Shown here: piece after piece, positions 2,096-15,165 of the stretch | Layout: every line of letters starts with the position of its first letter | How positions within the stretch are numbered: position 1 is the first letter of the stretch | From: a virus | Virus record (IMG/VR): IMGVR_UViG_3300021963_000215 | Coordinates: 1 to 45,308 of that record | Length of the DNA: 45,308 nt | Direction: 5' to 3' (one strand) | Program-made: the position numbers and the translations under genes | Notes under the pieces: generated by a model | Database searches by the model: none | Told to the model about the DNA's origin: nothing | Seen by the model: the letters and a program-made list of their open reading frames with translations, nothing else

Positions 2096-3769
2096 TTAGA
2101 TAACGTTAAGGTCACCAACCAATACTAATCCATAGTATTCAGGACGTACCATAGTCATAGCGTAACGAGTCATGATACCTTTACGTGGAGTGAAGGTGTT
2201 TGGATCGTACACTAATGGAGTCATGATCAATGGAACGTATGGAGAGTAAACAGCACCACACTCGAGGAATTGATTTCCACGGAATCCAAGAAGGATAGCG
2301 TTCTCAAGCATGTATGGGTTTTTGTAAACCTTGTAACGGCTGTTCAACTGACCGATCTTCTGTACACCGAAGGCATACTTCATAGTGTCAGCTGCACCAT
2401 CAGTATCAGCAGCAAATCCTGGGATAGACTCAAGAATTGTAGCTACAGTTGGAGAAACTACCATGAAGTTAGCACCACCACGCAAAGTACGCTGATGGAT
2501 GATGTTAGATACTTTCTGAAGCTTAATACCAAGGGTTTGGAACCAGCTCATTTGAGTATAATAAACACCAGCTGTGTTAGAAGTAAATGCTGTACCAGCA
2601 GCGTTGATTTGGTTACCAACTTGTGCAGACCAGTATTCAATGGTTGGAGCGTTTTGGATCAACATGTCAAGGATTTCGAGGTCGATCTCCAAAGAGATGT
2701 GCTCAGAAAGAAGACCAGTCAATTCAGCTTCAGCATCCAAAGAATGGTATGCATTCAAGTCTTGTGCAAATTCTGGAGTCCATTGTGCTTTCAACTTACG
2801 AGTTTTAGCAGAAATGGTTTGGCTCTTCATTTGTACGTTAATCTCAGGGATAACGATAGAAGTTGCAGACAAGCTGTTTGGAACAGATGGAAGACCAGAA
2901 CGATCTTCGAAATCACCACGGCTATTGAAGTCAGTAGCTTTGTTGTAGTAAACAACGAATTGGTTAGTACCAGCAGCAGAACCAGAAATCTCGGAAGTAG
3001 AAGCACTAACGAAGAATTCTACGTTACCACCATTGATCTTAGTGAACTGCTGAAGAGTGTCAGTTGCAGCTGATATAGAACCAGAAGCAATAACCCAAGC
3101 ACGTACACCATCAAAGTTTGGACTAACTAAAGAAGAGGTAGCGAAAGCGATCTTCTTAACGGTAGAAAGTGCAGAATCTGTACCACCTACAATAGAAGAA
3201 GAGAAGTTACTGTTGAAATCAACTTCAGCGAAAGATGCAGAAGAGATAGTTACAGTAGATGAAGCGCTAAACTGGTTCAAAGAATAACCGAAACGGCCAG
3301 CACCATAAAGAGCGCCTGCAGCTTGGTTACCAAAGTTTGCACTTGGTGTACCATAGATTGAATCACCAGCGGTGAATGGAGGCTTAGTGTTACCATATTG
3401 GAAATCCAAATAGAACACAAGACCTGCAGGGAGGTTCATCGGCTGTACAGAAACGAACTCTTTAGAAGCGATCTGTCCGAAGATTTTACGAACCAATGGA
3501 AGAGCTACACCAGCCCATTGCTCACCAGTACCTGGGGTAAAGGTAGCACCGCCGGTGTTAAGGTTACCGTTAGTTGTAGTAGATTCAACTACAAGCTGTT
3601 TAGCTTGGTTTTCGAGAATTACGGCCATGTTGTTGGCGTCGTAATCTTGCATGCCCTCGAGAAGGCCAGACTTGCTCCACTTTTTAGCAAGACGCTGAGC
3701 AACACCATGTTGATCAGAGAAAGCTGTTTGAGCGGATTCAGTCAAAAGGGATTGAACTAAATTTGCCAT
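2096..3769 (-). CDS. gp23: Major capsid protein, T4 gp23-like
   Basis: A 557-residue shell protein of the T4 gp23 family that forms the capsid hexamers. Family signatures include VSVQPMNLPAGLVFYLDF near residue 105-122 and the block KTRKLKAQWTPEFAQDLNAY followed by LDAEAELTGLL, which match T4 gp23 closely. The C-terminus carries the PFTPRKG/TRYA-like region. In T4 an N-terminal piece is removed by gp21 after a Glu; here VVE ending at residue 62 is the best-placed candidate. Residues 73-84 (GGATFTPGTGEQ) recur in the protein at 7268-7807. Its codons are visibly richer in G/C-ending choices than its neighbours, as expected for strong expression. A variant CATTTATTT motif precedes the start. Confidence 0.95.
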   Translation of the reverse strand: MANLVQSLLTESAQTAFSDQHGVAQRLAKKWSKSGLLEGMQDYDANNMAVILENQAKQLVVESTTTNGNLNTGGATFTPGTGEQWAGVALPLVRKIFGQIASKEFVSVQPMNLPAGLVFYLDFQYGNTKPPFTAGDSIYGTPSANFGNQAAGALYGAGRFGYSLNQFSASSTVTISSASFAEVDFNSNFSSSIVGGTDSALSTVKKIAFATSSLVSPNFDGVRAWVIASGSISAATDTLQQFTKINGGNVEFFVSASTSEISGSAAGTNQFVVYYNKATDFNSRGDFEDRSGLPSVPNSLSATSIVIPEINVQMKSQTISAKTRKLKAQWTPEFAQDLNAYHSLDAEAELTGLLSEHISLEIDLEILDMLIQNAPTIEYWSAQVGNQINAAGTAFTSNTAGVYYTQMSWFQTLGIKLQKVSNIIHQRTLRGGANFMVVSPTVATILESIPGFAADTDGAADTMKYAFGVQKIGQLNSRYKVYKNPYMLENAILLGFRGNQFLECGAVYSPYVPLIMTPLVYDPNTFTPRKGIMTRYAMTMVRPEYYGLVLVGDLNVI

Positions 3770-3799
3770 TTTAAATAAATGTTTTGTTTAATAATTGAT

Positions 3800-4885
3800 T
3801 TACTTTTTGATTCCAGCAAGAGTTTGCCAACGGTTGATAAATGGATCAGCGTCCACTATTCTAGCCTTTGGAGCAACGCCAGCTGCTTGTGATGCAAAAC
3901 CAATTGATTCTTTAAGCTGATTTTTCTTAGTCTCGCTAAAAGATTCTCTTAAAGTTTCATAAGTGTTCTTAACTTCGTTCACGCTTACAGCACGATCAAG
4001 AGCATTAACCACTTTTACTTTTTGAGACTCACTAAGAGACTTAGATTTGAACAACTTGTTCATGTAGAGATACTTTGCATTAAGCAAGTTAATCTCTTGA
4101 AGATCTTGACGTAAAGCCTCGATAGTTGATTTAGCTTCTTCAAGCTCTTCTTCCATCTTATCTTTTTCGTCTTCTTTCTTCTCTTCTAACTCTGGATATA
4201 CTGGCTTTTGACTGCCACCGGAAAATCCTGGATCACGATGATCCGCATCTTCCATACCCTCGGCTTCGAGTTCAGCAAGAATTTCGTCGAGAGAAATTTC
4301 AGCTTCAGCTTCAGAGTCAGCATCGGCTTCGTCACCAGCAAGACCTAAGTCTTGAGAACCAGCCATTACAGATTGGAGTACTTGCTTAAGATCTCCGAGA
4401 GTGATGTCGATTACTTTAGTTTCGTCACCTACCATCTCTTCTTCCTCTTCGCCTTCTTCCTCTCCTTCTTCTTCCTCTTCTTCTTCAGCTTCATTTAAAG
4501 CCTCGTCTTTCATTTCTTTTGCTTCTTCTATGTCGTCATGCTTAACCTCTTCCATTTCGTCGTGGCCAGCTTCGTCAACATTAGAAAGCTCTTCGAGTTG
4601 AGCAAGAATTTCTTCTAACTCAGCCTCGTTGATGTCAAGATTTTCTTCCATTCCGTCTTCAGAATAGGTTTCTTCCATCTTGTCATCGTGCATTTTTTCG
4701 TCGATGTTTTCCTCCATCTCTTCAACTTCGTCAAGTTCAGCTTCAGCTTCTTCTGAAAGCTTCAAACGAATCATCTCTTGAATCTTTGGTTCAAAAGCTT
4801 CTTCGAGTGCCGCCTTAGCATTAGCTACCGCAGAAGCTCTTAAAGCTTTAGCGTCAAGGATAGCATCTTGGTAAAGATTGCTCAT
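3800..4885 (-). CDS. gp22: Prohead core scaffolding protein, gp22-like
   Basis: A 361-residue, very acidic, mostly helical protein placed between the capsid and protease genes, exactly where T4 encodes gp22. The middle (about residues 60-160) is dominated by Glu/Asp, including long Glu runs. The C-terminal third (about 235-330) is coiled-coil, and the last residues NRWQTLAGIKK form a short hydrophobic tail that may contact the shell. In T4 the core protein guides head assembly and is then digested by gp21; the many L-x-E sites here are consistent with that. Assignment rests on order and composition more than on residue matches. Confidence 0.82.
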   Translation of the reverse strand: MSNLYQDAILDAKALRASAVANAKAALEEAFEPKIQEMIRLKLSEEAEAELDEVEEMEENIDEKMHDDKMEETYSEDGMEENLDINEAELEEILAQLEELSNVDEAGHDEMEEVKHDDIEEAKEMKDEALNEAEEEEEEEGEEEGEEEEEMVGDETKVIDITLGDLKQVLQSVMAGSQDLGLAGDEADADSEAEAEISLDEILAELEAEGMEDADHRDPGFSGGSQKPVYPELEEKKEDEKDKMEEELEEAKSTIEALRQDLQEINLLNAKYLYMNKLFKSKSLSESQKVKVVNALDRAVSVNEVKNTYETLRESFSETKKNQLKESIGFASQAAGVAPKARIVDADPFINRWQTLAGIKK

Positions 4886-4946
4886 TTCAATAAAATTGTT
4901 TCTGGGATTGCTTATTAGATAGAAAGCAATATAAGGATTTTATTCA

Positions 4947-4971
4947 CTAGTGTCATACTAGATAATGACAC
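4947..4971 (-). other. Competing hairpins in the gp22 leader
   Basis: The 140-base gap 4886-5025 contains no gene. It holds GTGTCAT/ATGACAC (arms 4950-4956 and 4965-4971, 8-base loop) and an overlapping alternative CTAGT/ACTAG (4947-4951 and 4957-4961, 5-base loop). The two cannot form together. There is no T run, so it is not a standard terminator. It lies between an ATATTTATT motif and the gp22 start and may affect mRNA stability or translation. Confidence 0.45.
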
Positions 4972-4977
4972 ATATGC

Positions 4978-4986
4978 AATAAATAT
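4978..4986 (-). promoter_or_regulatory. ATATTTATT motif upstream of gp22
   Basis: The minus strand reads GATATTTATTG 92 bases before the scaffold start, on the far side of the leader hairpins. It would give the scaffold gene a structured leader if it works as a promoter. Confidence 0.35.
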
Positions 4987-5025
4987 CTAACTTAAGAGTA
5001 AAAATATATAAACTCGTAAATATTT

Positions 5026-5655
5026 TTATTTACTCAAGCAACAAACTCCTGATTGCGAACAGATGATATCAGAAATAAGTTGATTAACTCTGCTTGTTGA
5101 TATAGCAATAGTATGATCTACAGACTCTCTTAAACCTCCAACTGGCTTCATATATGCACCGTATGTTGATGGTGTAGATACAAAGTCCCAGCAAATAAGA
5201 TCAAGATCATCTTCAACCTGTACTAAACCTTCACCGATTGGAGTAACAGAACCCATAGCTCTAGAAGATATACCAACAGTGATATTGTTTCTAAACAACT
5301 CTTTTAATATATTTCCTGATGGTGTAGGAAGTATTTCAACATCTCCATAAAGATCTTTACCTTCCCAATACAATCTAACAATGTTATGACTAACATTCTT
5401 AAGGTTAATAATAGAAGATTCAGGATGGTCTAATTCACCTAAAGCTCTATTCTCAGCAATTGGTCCAGCAATATATTTTTGTACTTGCTCAAATAAAGTT
5501 TGATACGGATAAATCCTTCTATTAGCATTAGGTTTATCAGTAGCTTGAACAAGTCCAGATACGACCATATTACCATTAGAAAGGCGCTTTGCCTCAGTTA
5601 AAGATTGCGGAAGCGGGCTAAAAGCATTATATTCTATTAAAAGTTGCTTAGACAT
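5026..5655 (-). CDS. gp21: Prohead maturation protease, gp21-like
   Basis: A 209-residue serine protease of the herpesvirus-assemblin-like prohead protease group (T4 gp21). The catalytic His is in GELDHPE (H77) and the Ser in GISSRAMGS (S130/S131), followed by the family's DFVSTPS segment at 157-163. It should act inside the prohead, cutting scaffold, capsid N-termini and internal proteins after [L/I]-x-E, as known for T4. Its own N-terminus, MSKQLLIE, ends in such a site. The start overlaps the upstream stop by one base (TAATG). The C-terminal Cys-rich tail (ICSQSGVCCLSK) is not typical and may be trimmed. Confidence 0.93.
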   Translation of the reverse strand: MSKQLLIEYNAFSPLPQSLTEAKRLSNGNMVVSGLVQATDKPNANRRIYPYQTLFEQVQKYIAGPIAENRALGELDHPESSIINLKNVSHNIVRLYWEGKDLYGDVEILPTPSGNILKELFRNNITVGISSRAMGSVTPIGEGLVQVEDDLDLICWDFVSTPSTYGAYMKPVGGLRESVDHTIAISTSRVNQLISDIICSQSGVCCLSK

Positions 5656-7124
5656 TATTGTACTTTTTCTTTTGTGTATCTTACTCCAGCTCTCTTTAAA
5701 TCAGCTTCATATCCAGGTGCTTCAGCATCTTTTGTAAAGATAACTTCTCCTCCTGCATGGAATTTTGTAGCCTCTTTTATCTTCTTTATTACTTCTTTCA
5801 ATTTGCCAATCTTTTCCTTGTTACCTTTATGTTTTGCCATATATTTTTTTATGGCTTCACCAAAAGGCTTACCTTTCCATGAACTCCAAGGATTAGTATC
5901 AGCAGGCTTTTCTAAACCAGCAATATCAATGTAGTTATAATTCATTCCATCAAAATAACCAGCCATAATCCTACGCTGCTCAATCTTTAATGAATCAATC
6001 TTAATCTCTTCATTTCTGTCTACAGTAATAGCTTTATCTCCTACTTTGAACTCTACACCTTCAGGACTTATAGCTCTTTGGCCATCTTTATTCATTTTAT
6101 ATCCTTGGAGTAATGGTTCGTCTGAACCTGGAAGGCTTTTATCTGGAGCTGGAAATATGCCTTCTTCTTGATGGCTTTTCTCTGTAAAATGATGCACTGT
6201 ATTGGCCTGATAGTCTTTTAATGAACCATCTTCCATTTCAACTGTAAAAGTACTACCGATAATTTCTGTTACTTTACCATTACCATCAGGAGTGTGTACT
6301 TCTGATCCTATATGGTATTTCCAGTGGCTGTCTTCGTTAATTTGATCTTTTTTTTTAAGAGAATTGGTAAGAGCTTTTAAAGCCTCTTCTTTAAGAGCCT
6401 TAACTTTTACCTTCTTCATCTCATTAGCCTTATCTTTATGATTGGCTTTTTTAACTTCTTGAGTTTGAAGCTTAGCGTCTTTCTTTTCTACATCTTCTGC
6501 ATTAGCAAACATTTCTTTGTCAAATGCATGAGGATTCTTTTGTAATTGCTTAGCAGCTTTATTAAGGGCGAGCTTATATGAATCATTAGTAAGTTCGTCT
6601 TCTTTTGACAACATCATCTGTACACCTTTTTTCAAGAAGTATGGATTAACCCTGTCAACTGCTGGATCGGTAGTTACATTAGCATCTGCCTCATTTAAAG
6701 ACATTTTTTTAGCAGCTAATTTAGGATCACTTTTTGACTTATTATCCATAAAAGAACCATCACCCCACCAAGCAACTACAGAATCTGTATCTGCTGTGGA
6801 ATTAAAATTAGGTCCAGCTTTAAATACGTCTACATGCTGCAATTTTTTATTTGTAGCGGCAAGTTGTTTAGCAAACGCAATTGCAGATTTAATGTCTTTA
6901 AACTTCTTAGATTGTCTGATTCCATCTGAATAGTGAACTTCATAATTCTCAGCAATATCCGCTTCGCTAATGATACCCTTGTTCTTAAGGATCCTTACAG
7001 CGTCATCATAAGATGTAATATTGGTTACCCAAGGAAGGTTATTATCCTTGCGTGCTTCATAAAGAAACTTCTCGCGGCTTACTTCCCCAGCCTTATGTTT
7101 ACGGTATAATTGAATTATCGTCAT
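5655..7124 (-). CDS. Head-module protein of unknown function
   Basis: A 489-residue soluble, charged protein between the protease and the presumed core genes. The N-terminus has a helical leader with FLYE at residues 20-23, an [L/I]-x-E type site. A Lys/Glu-rich helical section lies near 200-260. A small beta-rich region follows around 265-310 (HIGSEVHTPDGNGKVTEIIG), resembling a KOW/SH3-like barrel. A second similar GDKAITV segment lies near 360, and the C-terminus is basic. I infer an internal or core protein processed during maturation; the family is not recognised. The start is 3 bases after an AATATTTATT motif. Confidence 0.7.
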   Translation of the reverse strand: MTIIQLYRKHKAGEVSREKFLYEARKDNNLPWVTNITSYDDAVRILKNKGIISEADIAENYEVHYSDGIRQSKKFKDIKSAIAFAKQLAATNKKLQHVDVFKAGPNFNSTADTDSVVAWWGDGSFMDNKSKSDPKLAAKKMSLNEADANVTTDPAVDRVNPYFLKKGVQMMLSKEDELTNDSYKLALNKAAKQLQKNPHAFDKEMFANAEDVEKKDAKLQTQEVKKANHKDKANEMKKVKVKALKEEALKALTNSLKKKDQINEDSHWKYHIGSEVHTPDGNGKVTEIIGSTFTVEMEDGSLKDYQANTVHHFTEKSHQEEGIFPAPDKSLPGSDEPLLQGYKMNKDGQRAISPEGVEFKVGDKAITVDRNEEIKIDSLKIEQRRIMAGYFDGMNYNYIDIAGLEKPADTNPWSSWKGKPFGEAIKKYMAKHKGNKEKIGKLKEVIKKIKEATKFHAGGEVIFTKDAEAPGYEADLKRAGVRYTKEKVQ

Positions 7125-7127
7125 ACT

Positions 7128-7137
7128 AATAAATATT
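7128..7137 (-). promoter_or_regulatory. AATATTTATT motif before the 489-residue gene
   Basis: The minus strand reads AATATTTATTAGTATG, so the motif ends only 3 bases before the start codon and overlaps the stop of the preceding 42-residue gene. Such short spacing would give a nearly leaderless mRNA if it is a promoter. Confidence 0.35.
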
Positions 7138-7265
7138 TATCTTCCCTGTCCACGATAAGTTTTTTCTGACCTATCGTGTTTGTTAAATGATTTTTGTGCC
7201 TTACCTTTCTTTCTTTTACCAAAATTGATCTTTACTGATGTTCCACCTTTTGATACTTTTGCCAT
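7137..7265 (-). CDS. Small basic protein (42 aa)
   Basis: A 42-residue frame from ATG 7265 to TAA 7137, beginning MAKVSKGGTSVKINFGKRKK and ending TYRGQGR. It is strongly basic with no hydrophobic core, suggesting nucleic-acid or acidic-scaffold binding. The neighbours fit tightly: the upstream stop is at 7270-7268, and the downstream start follows the next motif. The frame fills an otherwise empty gap inside a packed operon and uses codons like its neighbours, so I regard it as real. T4 places small prohead core proteins (gp67, gp68) in this part of the order, but no residue match supports equating them. Confidence 0.7.
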   Translation of the reverse strand: MAKVSKGGTSVKINFGKRKKGKAQKSFNKHDRSEKTYRGQGR

Positions 7266-7267
7266 GA

Positions 7268-7807
7268 CTACTTAAACTTTTTAATGTTTTGATTAAGTTC
7301 TGCAACCATTTCCTTTATCTTACTAAGGGCTTTTTCTGTATGGGCTTTATATTTAAGACCACCTTCACCTTCAGATAATTCTGATTTGAGGCGGCTTACA
7401 TATTCAAACAAACGATTAATTTCTTGTACTTTCTTTCTAACTTCACGAACAGCTTGGTGGAATTGATCTGCTTTACCTCTGGTTTTAGTTTCGGTTTTAA
7501 ACTTAGAGTAGCTTTCATTTAACTCTTCAAACAATTGCTTGTAGATAAAACCACCTTTAGATGGACGGTTAGGTACAGATGGAGCATCTTTCCAACCCCA
7601 TTTATCTTTCATGTATATTTTAGCTTTACCTGCTGCTAACTTAGGCTCAACATCTTTCACTTCTTTCTTAGTCTTCTTTTTAAAAGCCTTATTGGTAGCC
7701 ATTTGTTCACCAGTACCAGGAGTAAAAGTTGCACCTCCAAAGTTGGTAGCAGATGTTTCTTGACGAAGTTTCTGTGTAGCGAACTGATTATTAAACTTTT
7801 TATCCAC
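7268..7807 (-). CDS. Probable prohead core / capsid-associated protein
   Basis: A 179-residue protein starting at GTG (7807-7805), two bases after the upstream stop. Residues 24-35, GGATFTPGTGEQ, are identical to residues 73-84 of the major capsid protein and lie in a similar Ser/Thr/Asn-rich setting. Residues 36-60 are Lys-rich, a W-rich basic patch (KDKWGWKDAPSVPNRPSKGG) follows, and the last 80 residues are a coiled coil. By position between portal and protease it resembles the T4 gp67/gp68 core genes. The shared peptide suggests that both proteins bind the same partner or are cut by the same protease. Confidence 0.7.
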   Translation of the reverse strand: MDKKFNNQFATQKLRQETSATNFGGATFTPGTGEQMATNKAFKKKTKKEVKDVEPKLAAGKAKIYMKDKWGWKDAPSVPNRPSKGGFIYKQLFEELNESYSKFKTETKTRGKADQFHQAVREVRKKVQEINRLFEYVSRLKSELSEGEGGLKYKAHTEKALSKIKEMVAELNQNIKKFK

Positions 7808-8697: not shown

Positions 8698-10611
8698 TTA
8701 ATCTAAATCTCCTTTAATATTATCTTCACTTAAAAGATCTGACTCTTCAAATAGATTGACCTTTCTACCCTTTTTACTACTAAACATTTTATCTAGATAT
8801 TGTTTGTTTTTAAGATATTCATTCATGGTAGATTCAAGAGCTAATGGATTACCTCCTTTATAGTTAGGCCTCATACTATTCTCACCAGTTTCAGCATCCT
8901 TTTTGTATGCTGCGGCTCCTAATGGATCACGTCCAAATGCTGATCCGTCGGTTGAGATAATAGAGGTTTGTGTTTTAGGGCGTCCTGGTCCAACTTGCTT
9001 CTCATCATAACCTTGTGGTACGTTTAATACAGAGTCTTCTTTACCTCCATACAAACTAGCTATCTGATGAGGAGTACCATATGCTTGGCCTGATTCTGCT
9101 GGATCATTACCCTCTTCTTGTATCTGTGCATATCTAAATTCACGCTTCTTGTCTTCTACAATCATATCTTCAAGCTCTGCATATTGATCTTCAGAGAAGT
9201 GGAATATCTTGTCATAGATGAAGTCTCTAGGTAACAAGGATCCTTCCATTGCCTGCTTAGCAAGATCAATCTTCTCTTTGAAAAGTGCTATCCTTTCTTG
9301 GTCATAGATAATAGATGGATTAGTAAGAGATAGCGTAAAGTTTGCTGCTGATTCATTCGTATATCCATGGGCATATAAATGTACTAATGCTATTTTAGTT
9401 AATTCACTTACAATAATTCTTTGAAGTCTCTCAATAGTTCTAGCAAACCTAATGTCTTCAGCAGCAAGTGTTGCTTTACCTGTTAAGTCTTTTTCATAAC
9501 CCATGAAAGCTTTAGGTATCTTGAGAGCTGCAAAAAGCTTCTCACGAAAGTAAGCAACGTCTTCAATACCATTGTATTCAAGGCCTTTTGCTGTGTCTAT
9601 TTTAGTAGAAGTATCATTACCTCTAATAGGGATAAAGAAGTCTTCTAGGAGGTTTTGCTGGTTATACTTAAGGTTATAATTACCTGTATTAGGATCAATC
9701 AAAGGAGTCTTCTTCATCTTCTGAATCATCCTTTGCATATAGTTATCAACTTCACCTGGAGGAATAGCTCCTACATTCACATAGAAAATCCTACGTTCAG
9801 GAGCCCTAACGATACGGTGAATCAACATCGCATCTTCAATAAGTGTATACTGCTTAAATAGTTTACGCGCTGGCTCAAGGTATGATCTACCATAAGGAAG
9901 ATAGTTAACATCACCAGTTAAACGGAAATGCGCCATCTCATAGTTATCAAACCAAATACCGGTATCATTATTTTGTTGGCGGCTATAACCACTAGATGAA
10001 GCTAGTGTAGCATTAGGATCATATTTAAACCTAACCTCTTGAGGGTTTTCTGGGTTGTAGCCTTCTTCTCTGATAATGTTATAAGCTGAGAAAGGAATAA
10101 CATTATAAACGCCGTAGTTTTCTGCGATCTCTAATTTGAGGTAGAAGTCTCCATACTTAGCCATATTCCTAACCCAAGACCAAAGATTAAATTCAATATT
10201 AAGTACAGAATAAAATAAGTTGTAGAGGAGTTTCTGAATATTCTCGTCAGAAGATCTAATTTGTAAAACTTCACCTTGTTCGTTTTTAAGTGTACATTCA
10301 TCAGAAATAATATCAAGAGCAGAACAGCAAATAGCATCTGTGTCCATAGCATCATAGTCTGCATAGATTTGTACCCTTGCAGATTGATAGTTCTGTGATA
10401 AGTTTAAGTTAACACCATATGCTGTAGACGTAGTATATACCTTATTGAATCTATCTACTAATGAATTAGTTTGAATTACACCAGACCTTTGGATAGTATC
10501 TGTGTCGACTACTTTTAACATGTCTCCGCCTTCATTACGAATGATTACATCCGTAGAAAATAAACGTCTTAATGTAGAAAATAGATTATTCTGTCTTTGT
10601 TGTTCTGCCAT
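8698..10611 (-). CDS. gp20: Portal protein, T4 gp20-like
   Basis: A 637-residue portal that forms the dodecameric DNA entry channel and docks the terminase and neck. Typical gp20-family segments are the N-terminal DIISDECTL region (about 95-105), WSWVRNMAKYGDFYLKLEI (about 143-161), and the IVRAPERRIFYVNVGAIPPG block near 268-287. The C-terminal 130 residues are hydrophilic and probably disordered. It is 9 bases downstream of the terminase stop and has no Shine-Dalgarno sequence (AAATAAAAATATGG). Length is slightly above that of T4 gp20 (524). Confidence 0.93.
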   Translation of the reverse strand: MAEQQRQNNLFSTLRRLFSTDVIIRNEGGDMLKVVDTDTIQRSGVIQTNSLVDRFNKVYTTSTAYGVNLNLSQNYQSARVQIYADYDAMDTDAICCSALDIISDECTLKNEQGEVLQIRSSDENIQKLLYNLFYSVLNIEFNLWSWVRNMAKYGDFYLKLEIAENYGVYNVIPFSAYNIIREEGYNPENPQEVRFKYDPNATLASSSGYSRQQNNDTGIWFDNYEMAHFRLTGDVNYLPYGRSYLEPARKLFKQYTLIEDAMLIHRIVRAPERRIFYVNVGAIPPGEVDNYMQRMIQKMKKTPLIDPNTGNYNLKYNQQNLLEDFFIPIRGNDTSTKIDTAKGLEYNGIEDVAYFREKLFAALKIPKAFMGYEKDLTGKATLAAEDIRFARTIERLQRIIVSELTKIALVHLYAHGYTNESAANFTLSLTNPSIIYDQERIALFKEKIDLAKQAMEGSLLPRDFIYDKIFHFSEDQYAELEDMIVEDKKREFRYAQIQEEGNDPAESGQAYGTPHQIASLYGGKEDSVLNVPQGYDEKQVGPGRPKTQTSIISTDGSAFGRDPLGAAAYKKDAETGENSMRPNYKGGNPLALESTMNEYLKNKQYLDKMFSSKKGRKVNLFEESDLLSEDNIKGDLD

Positions 10612-13563: not shown

Positions 13564-15165
13564 TTATTTTGCTTTGTAGTCACACATAATGTGAGTAGGG
13601 TATAAACCGCCTTGTTTGTTTCTGATATTAACTTTAAAGTAGTACTTATCAGATTCAAATACAACGTCCACTCTTTTTCCTTTACCATCTATTCCTCCAT
13701 AATATACTTGAGGTTCCGATGTTATAGTAGAAGCTATTTTATTATATTTGTCACTAATCTTAAAGAATTGGTCTTCTCCTTTTCCTGCTTGAGCATAATA
13801 ATATCCAGAACCAATACCTGAGCTAACTAGATTTTGAAGCTTAGCTATATCTGCTTTTATTTGTTTAGGTATAAATTTACCTGCTTTACCTTTCTCATAG
13901 TAATTAAATACAGCACAGAAAGATTTATTGTCTATACCAAGTGTCTTAAGTAGAGCTACACCATTAGCATTTTTGATCTCTCCTTTTTTGATCTCATCAG
14001 CTGGTAAAGTCTTTGCTACTCCTGAATTGAAGAATGTTAATGTACCTCCAAACTTAGCAGATATATAATATTCTTGTCCTTCTTTTATAACTGTAATGTC
14101 TGTTAAAGTTTCAGCTACATTTTTACCGGAAAATGATACAGTAGGACCTGATGAACTAAAAGCTAAAGGTCTAGGTTTATTTGCACTACCATCTAAACGT
14201 ACTGTAAAATTACCTTTTTTAAGACCCAACTCATTAGCTATTTTGCTAATTAACTGAGGATGGTTATACGATTCTATATTTTGTTTAGTAAGACCTTCTT
14301 TAGATAATTTTTCAAGATCTCCTGCTAAACTACCTTCAAAACCAAGTCCTTTAGACTTAATACCACGACCCCCTCTAGAACCTTCACCGAACTTAATGTT
14401 TAGTCCGTTCCATTTAATCTTACCAGTTTTGTTAATGTCTTGCCCTGTTACTTTTTTAATAGCGTCAAGAGCCTTTTTATCTGTTTGAAACTTTCTTGTT
14501 ATATTAACAAAATTAGGTTTAGTAGGATCTAAAGAGATAGGGTCTTCAATATCTGAAACTGTTCTAAGCGCTTTATAGAGGGCTTTAATATTAGGATCAG
14601 TTATTTCCTTCTCAGATTTAGGAAACTCTGTATATGCTTCGCTTCTAAGAATGCTTTCTAATATCCTGTATTCTGCTAACTGCTCTTCACCTTCTTCTGC
14701 TCCTGTTTCTGATGGTGGTGTTGGTCCTGCTTCTTCTGCTGGTCCTTCTGAATCTCTGGTGGCTTGCTCGGCTCCTTCTGGACCTTTTGTCTTTAAAGGA
14801 TTACCATTCCTCAACAACCTTGAAATAGCAACCATGCACCTTTCTTTTTCTCCTATTGACATTAAGTAATACTTCTTACCTTGCACTGTAGCTTCATAAG
14901 CTTTTCCCATAAACTGTAAGAAAAAGTATTCACCGTTGTGAAGTACAATCTTAAATGTAGTTGGTTTAGGAGCTACTACATATATACCTGTGATGTACTC
15001 TTCAAATGAAGGAGTCATAAGATACTCAAGAGTGTTCTTAAGCCCTGCATATTTTCTCAATATAAACTGCATAGGATCGTCCTCGAACGTAGATTGTTCA
15101 GGCTCCATCCTATCTAACTCTTGTAAGAGTATAGTCTTTAATATGTCATGATTACTCACTGGCAT
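13564..15165 (-). CDS. Putative internal head protein, possible nuclease-like C-terminal domain
   Basis: A 533-residue protein with a leader MPVSNHDILKTILLQE ending in L-Q-E. Residues 25-115 form a compact alpha/beta domain; about 125-165 is a Pro/Glu/Gly-rich linker; the remaining 365 residues are a second domain. That domain has DITVIKEGQEYYISAKFGG followed by TFFNSGV, a D-(x)n-S-x-K arrangement reminiscent of PD-(D/E)XK nucleases, with Ser where Asp/Glu is normal. I cannot confirm the fold. It is the largest of the leader-bearing proteins and, if packaged, would be a major internal protein. Confidence 0.6.
   Translation of the reverse strand: MPVSNHDILKTILLQELDRMEPEQSTFEDDPMQFILRKYAGLKNTLEYLMTPSFEEYITGIYVVAPKPTTFKIVLHNGEYFFLQFMGKAYEATVQGKKYYLMSIGEKERCMVAISRLLRNGNPLKTKGPEGAEQATRDSEGPAEEAGPTPPSETGAEEGEEQLAEYRILESILRSEAYTEFPKSEKEITDPNIKALYKALRTVSDIEDPISLDPTKPNFVNITRKFQTDKKALDAIKKVTGQDINKTGKIKWNGLNIKFGEGSRGGRGIKSKGLGFEGSLAGDLEKLSKEGLTKQNIESYNHPQLISKIANELGLKKGNFTVRLDGSANKPRPLAFSSSGPTVSFSGKNVAETLTDITVIKEGQEYYISAKFGGTLTFFNSGVAKTLPADEIKKGEIKNANGVALLKTLGIDNKSFCAVFNYYEKGKAGKFIPKQIKADIAKLQNLVSSGIGSGYYYAQAGKGEDQFFKISDKYNKIASTITSEPQVYYGGIDGKGKRVDVVFESDKYYFKVNIRNKQGGLYPTHIMCDYKAK

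Follow-up and report, generated by a model that had tools for sequence, protein, structure and literature searches.

A twelve-residue peptide shared by the major capsid protein and a putative core protein of a T4-type virus: possible mimicry of the capsid N-fist

For certain proteins, the mechanisms of localisation to the core of T4-type proheads "remain mysterious" (PMC9958956). A question of this kind is raised by the window analysed here, i.e. the whole stretch of DNA, a virus record of 45,308 bases whose minus strand encodes a head module of the T4 type. Two of its otherwise unrelated products, the major capsid protein (MCP), which is gp23-like, and a small protein of 179 residues, both carry the peptide GGATFTPGTGEQ. 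What holds one and the same sequence in two different head proteins?

The head gene module

The module is arranged in the order large terminase, portal, a 282-aa protein, the 179-aa protein, a 489-aa protein, prohead protease, acidic scaffold, MCP and PhoH, where the PhoH assignment is based on position and annotated relatives. All features described below are encoded on the minus strand. The MCP (557 aa, 2096–3769) is homologous to T4 gp23, as indicated by phrog_138 (E 6.7e-69), by PDB chains of gp23 (E about 1e-33), and by the best Foldseek hits, which are likewise to T4 gp23. The prohead protease (5026–5655) is gp21-like (phrog_207, head maturation protease, E 7.9e-47) and presumed to cut both proteins of interest, and the portal (8698–10611) is gp20-like (phrog_213, E 4.4e-67). 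The acidic scaffold (3800–4885) was assigned from its gp22 position and its composition. Outside this set, a 533-aa protein (13564–15165) matches phrog_8438 of unknown function (E 4.4e-58).

The 179-aa protein (7268–7807, GTG start) is found at the position of T4 genes 67/68, and its orthologues lie at the same place in relatives. It is putatively a prohead core (internal head) protein and will be referred to as the core protein for brevity. The search for a named family returned only weak coiled-coil-type matches, no relatives were found in the PDB, and tblastn gave no match in cultured phages. Homology to gp67 or gp68 was considered and rejected (hhalign probability about 0.2% or less). The structure model and the alignment describe a conserved N-terminus, a disordered tail that bears the peptide, and a helical C-terminal part (residues 90–179, 7271–7540) with helices at 90–107, 112–147 and 155–178, a block pLDDT of up to 87, and the conserved pattern YS.FK.ETKTR...EI...EY..RLK. 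Many of the aligned homologues carry long variable insertions between GGFIYKQLFEE and the C-terminal helices; the window protein is free of such insertions. A very basic ORF of 42 aa at 7137–7265 (MAKVSKGGTSVKINFGKRKKGKAQKSFNKHDRSEKTYRGQGR) separates the core protein from the 489-aa gene; T4 gp68, encoded in the corresponding interval, is likewise very basic at its C-terminus.

The shared peptide and its paired evolution

The peptide is an exact match in both ORFs, at residues 73–84 of the MCP (3518–3553) and at residues 24–35 of the core protein (7703–7738). In agreement with the original prediction, six of the twelve codons differ between the copies and every change is synonymous, and the stretches ahead of the peptide read VVESTTTNG in the MCP, with NLNT separating it from the peptide, and RQETSATNF in the core protein. 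The 45-kb record contains no third copy of the peptide, which is the longest word common to different ORFs of the window, the next longest comprising eight residues. When the ORFs of the window were shuffled (200 shuffles), the longest shared word was mostly six or seven residues and never exceeded eight.

Relatives were drawn from IMG/VR and from cultured phages, and many of the IMG/VR relatives, although diverged, have both copies. When every ORF of the window and of four contigs (162–174 kb) was screened with a profile of the junction, ten proteins matched, i.e. one MCP and one core protein per genome in all five genomes, and no further match was obtained up to E = 10. The scaffold, which was not among the matches, is devoid of the peptide. 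The core homologue of one contig (G006, 84 aa), which was outside the training set of the profile, was recovered with E 9e-11. Moreover, a full MCP profile weakly finds core proteins and a core profile weakly finds MCPs, presumably through the shared stretch. No paper on the peptide TPGTGEQ was found in a literature search. A match by chance, or by way of a generic low-complexity linker, would be in keeping with flanks rich in S/T/G/N, but it is very improbable given a 12-mer against at most eight residues in the shuffles and only two matches per genome, and it is contradicted by the permutation test described below.

Among the relatives, the MCP and core copies of one genome are more alike than copies from different genomes. 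This was quantified by scoring the MCP junction against the N-terminal part of the core protein from its own and from other genomes under permutation of whole clades, which were defined on the body of the MCP with the junction excluded. The test returned P values of 5e-5 for 10–40 clades, 1e-4 for 8, 0.0015 for 6 and 0.008 for 5 clades, whereas two control segments of the MCP gave P 0.25–0.55 under the same permutation. Individual genomes illustrate the pairing, with NGATFTPGNGEQ (L048), TGTGASFTPG.GEQY (L151) and TGGGVSNGATFTPGTGEQ (L028) each present in both proteins. The agreement of codons at shared residues was 220 of 505 (0.436) in matched pairs, compared to 0.473 in unmatched ones. As codon identity is not raised in matched pairs, recent DNA copying is excluded, in line with the suggestion that the peptide is conserved at the amino-acid level. 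Copying old enough for synonymous sites to be saturated would escape this comparison. An old, short duplication, by which the core gene received the MCP junction or vice versa, with gene conversion repeated in some clades and no shared function, would explain why two unrelated proteins share 12–18 identical residues within one genome, and saturated sites may conceal it. We regard it as a distinctly improbable account, since codon identity is not raised in matched pairs, which implies that the two copies were later maintained at the amino-acid level.

The peptide is not universal. For 73 distinct core N-termini, the motif was present in core protein and MCP in 33 cases, in the MCP but not the core protein in 35, and in neither in five. 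Some of the 35 motif-less cores are near variants, e.g. ASVTPGTGEG; the motif-less cores often read like EEGSVTGSGEAYLAGLDVPEKVYK, and many carry GEAY.PGLDVP..KY. At the place of the peptide, cores without it (L014, L016, L017, L027, L042 and others) often have another short element, GEAY.PG(L)DVP.KKY, and the L045 core has the peptide and the alternative element in tandem (FTSGTGEQYAPGLDVPNKKY). Cultured homologues of the core protein were identified by gene position in Flavobacterium phage immuto (73 aa) and by profile in Microcystis phage Mel-JY01 (178 aa). Both cores share the gene position and a Glu followed by an S/T/V-TG element; FTPGTGEQ is absent from core protein and MCP in these phages, although both proteins show a Glu and then a TG-containing element. 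In the outgroup Cyanophage S-RIM2, no shared peptide was found in gp23 or in the small protein at the gene-67 position, and none of the cultured relatives identified in this analysis has the motif. Given its absence or alteration in many cores and in the outgroups, the peptide is a feature of one branch, in both proteins. The original prediction would have fallen with relatives that lack the peptide: it stands in part, with both copies recurring in many relatives, and is weakened by the 35 cores and the cultured outgroups.

Predicted cleavage and the position of the two copies

In the MCP, residues 1–62 (3584–3769) are predicted to form a propeptide ending in LVVE, at a position similar to residues 1–65 of T4 gp23. 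E62 is invariant in 47 sequences and L59 is invariant as well; cleavage behind E62 is a prediction. The structure model is poor (mean pLDDT 56) and shows helices at 2–32 and 42–59, followed by Glu62, a stretch of very low confidence, and a helix at 83–101. The segment behind the predicted cut, STTTNGNLNTGGATFTPGTGEQWA (residues 63–86, 3512–3583), is located where the N-fist is expected in a gp23-like MCP, i.e. immediately after the propeptide, and the profile alignment places GGATFT.GTGEQ on residues 14–25 of gp23*, i.e. 79–90 of full-length T4 gp23. Conservation peaks 18–22 residues past the cut (G80, G82–Q84), G82, E83 and Q84 being invariant, and the nearly invariant kernel G.GEQ(W/Y) is directly joined to the helix 83–101.

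The N-terminus of the core protein, MDKKFNNQFATQKLRQE (residues 1–17, 7757–7807), includes a low-confidence helix at 10–17 and ends in E17, which is at least 90% conserved and closes the conserved stretch FNNQFATQ.LR.E of about 17 residues. Capsid-targeting propeptides in T4 comprise 10–19 residues (PMC9026906), and this short N-terminus ending in Glu, conserved in relatives, resembles such a sequence (CTS), its removal being predicted. Behind it, the peptide resides in a tail that is predicted to be disordered.

The original prediction had noted a Glu ahead of both copies, which is borne out by the conservation of E62 and E17. For the core protein this refers to the alignment, as the regular expression used to collect junctions demanded Glu and its P1 count is thus not evidence. 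The predicted sites are LVVE and LRQE, with V and R at P3 in place of the L/I-x-E motif of gp21-type cleavage (PMC9026906); Leu occupies P4 in both, so that both read L-x-x-E.

The element might be an extended P′-side recognition sequence of the prohead protease of this clade, found in its two precisely cut substrates. It directly follows the conserved Glu in both proteins, and P2′ is mostly Ser in both, albeit in a core set preselected for Glu and S/T/A/G/N at P2′. Still, conservation in the MCP is strongest 18–22 residues beyond the cut, the scaffold and all other proteins of the five genomes searched are without the element, and many cores keep the Glu yet lack the peptide. Moreover, a short motif ahead of the cut is nearly all that T4-type prohead proteases require (PMC9026906), and giant-phage enzymes likewise require no more than a short motif (PMC10052503). 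This reading, which is weaker than that of a common prohead partner discussed below, is considered improbable; as regards the suggested shared protease boundary, it is unlikely that the peptide itself acts as the protease signal.

A possible docking role and comparison with T4

Paired change across lineages without recent DNA copying suggests that both copies bind the same place in head building. With the same sequence under selection in two otherwise unrelated head proteins, each behind a predicted cut, the simplest cause is one binding site. Paired evolution is best accounted for by a common docking site, as had been proposed, the docking itself being inferred. Mimicry of the N-fist is favoured because the MCP element is the shell's own N-fist segment. 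In T4, the N-fist is disordered within the unexpanded prohead, moves from the inside to the outside on expansion, and then grips neighbouring capsomers (PMC9958956).

In the proposed mechanism, the first ~17 residues of the core protein would act as a capsid-targeting propeptide, and the gp21-like protease would cut behind Glu17 of the core protein and Glu62 of the MCP. Each new N-terminus would then display the same disordered element, an S/T/G/N linker followed by the peptide. The MCP copy would function as N-fist segment, as in T4, whereas the core copy would mimic it and dock in the same MCP pocket, most plausibly in pockets that are vacant at pentons or around the portal, or else for a limited time before the shell expands. 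In this way, the helical core protein would be tethered to the inner face of the shell. Taken as a whole, a core protein tail that mimics the capsid N-fist after cleavage and docks at the same MCP site is our best explanation, held with a confidence slightly short of even. That such mimicry of the fist, which cleavage creates at the N-terminus of the phage's own capsid protein, lets the core protein fill the same shell pockets under co-evolution of the sequences, and anchors internal proteins or caps vacant N-fist sites at pentons or portal, is tentative and somewhat more doubtful. The final position of the T4 N-fist on the outer surface speaks against docking, since an internal protein could gain access to it only across the shell. 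Docking through the peptide is not essential in all lineages either, as 35 of 73 cores lack the motif while their MCP has it.

The main alternative is a third prohead partner, such as the scaffold, the protease body or the portal, that binds both elements and forces their paired evolution. It fits the paired evolution and the position too, and T4 MCP N-termini are inside the unexpanded prohead, where core proteins are (PMC9958956). Conversely, a near-invariant MCP kernel joined to the helix 83–101 is what would be expected of a structural element of the shell, and the evidence names no such partner. We consider a third partner unlikely, albeit a serious competitor of N-fist mimicry. A peptide held alike by selection in shell and core of one genome points to one directly testable site and suggests a simple rule for recognising capsid-docked internal proteins: to seek a further copy of the MCP stretch that lies behind the cut.

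The head gene order follows T4 genes 17, 20, 67, 68, 21, 22 and 23, but without genes 18 and 19 in between. In four near-complete contigs (G003–G006, L229–L265), one gp23/gp24-like protein was found per contig and no second, so a separate gp24 may be dispensable for pentons in this clade. The T4 gp23 N-fist comprises residues 66–91, is stabilised by inter-capsomer contacts, and is disordered in the five subunits facing the portal (PMC7136217). The MCP segment resembles it in lying directly behind the predicted propeptide cut, with the peptide aligned to gp23 79–90, and in the distance to the next conserved helix (about 24 residues compared to 27 in T4), but the T4 sequence is unlike the peptide. 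A copy of the N-fist stretch was found neither in gp67 nor in gp68 of T4, and no mention of one in another T4 head protein was found in the literature. The core protein is similar to gp67/gp68 as a small head-assembly gene between portal and prohead protease, and to T4 IPII/IPIII in its short, predicted N-terminal propeptide ending in Glu, although the CTS differs in sequence. In T4 IPII/IPIII the CTS is shared among internal proteins, whereas the shared part described here lies behind the predicted cut and is held in common with the MCP.
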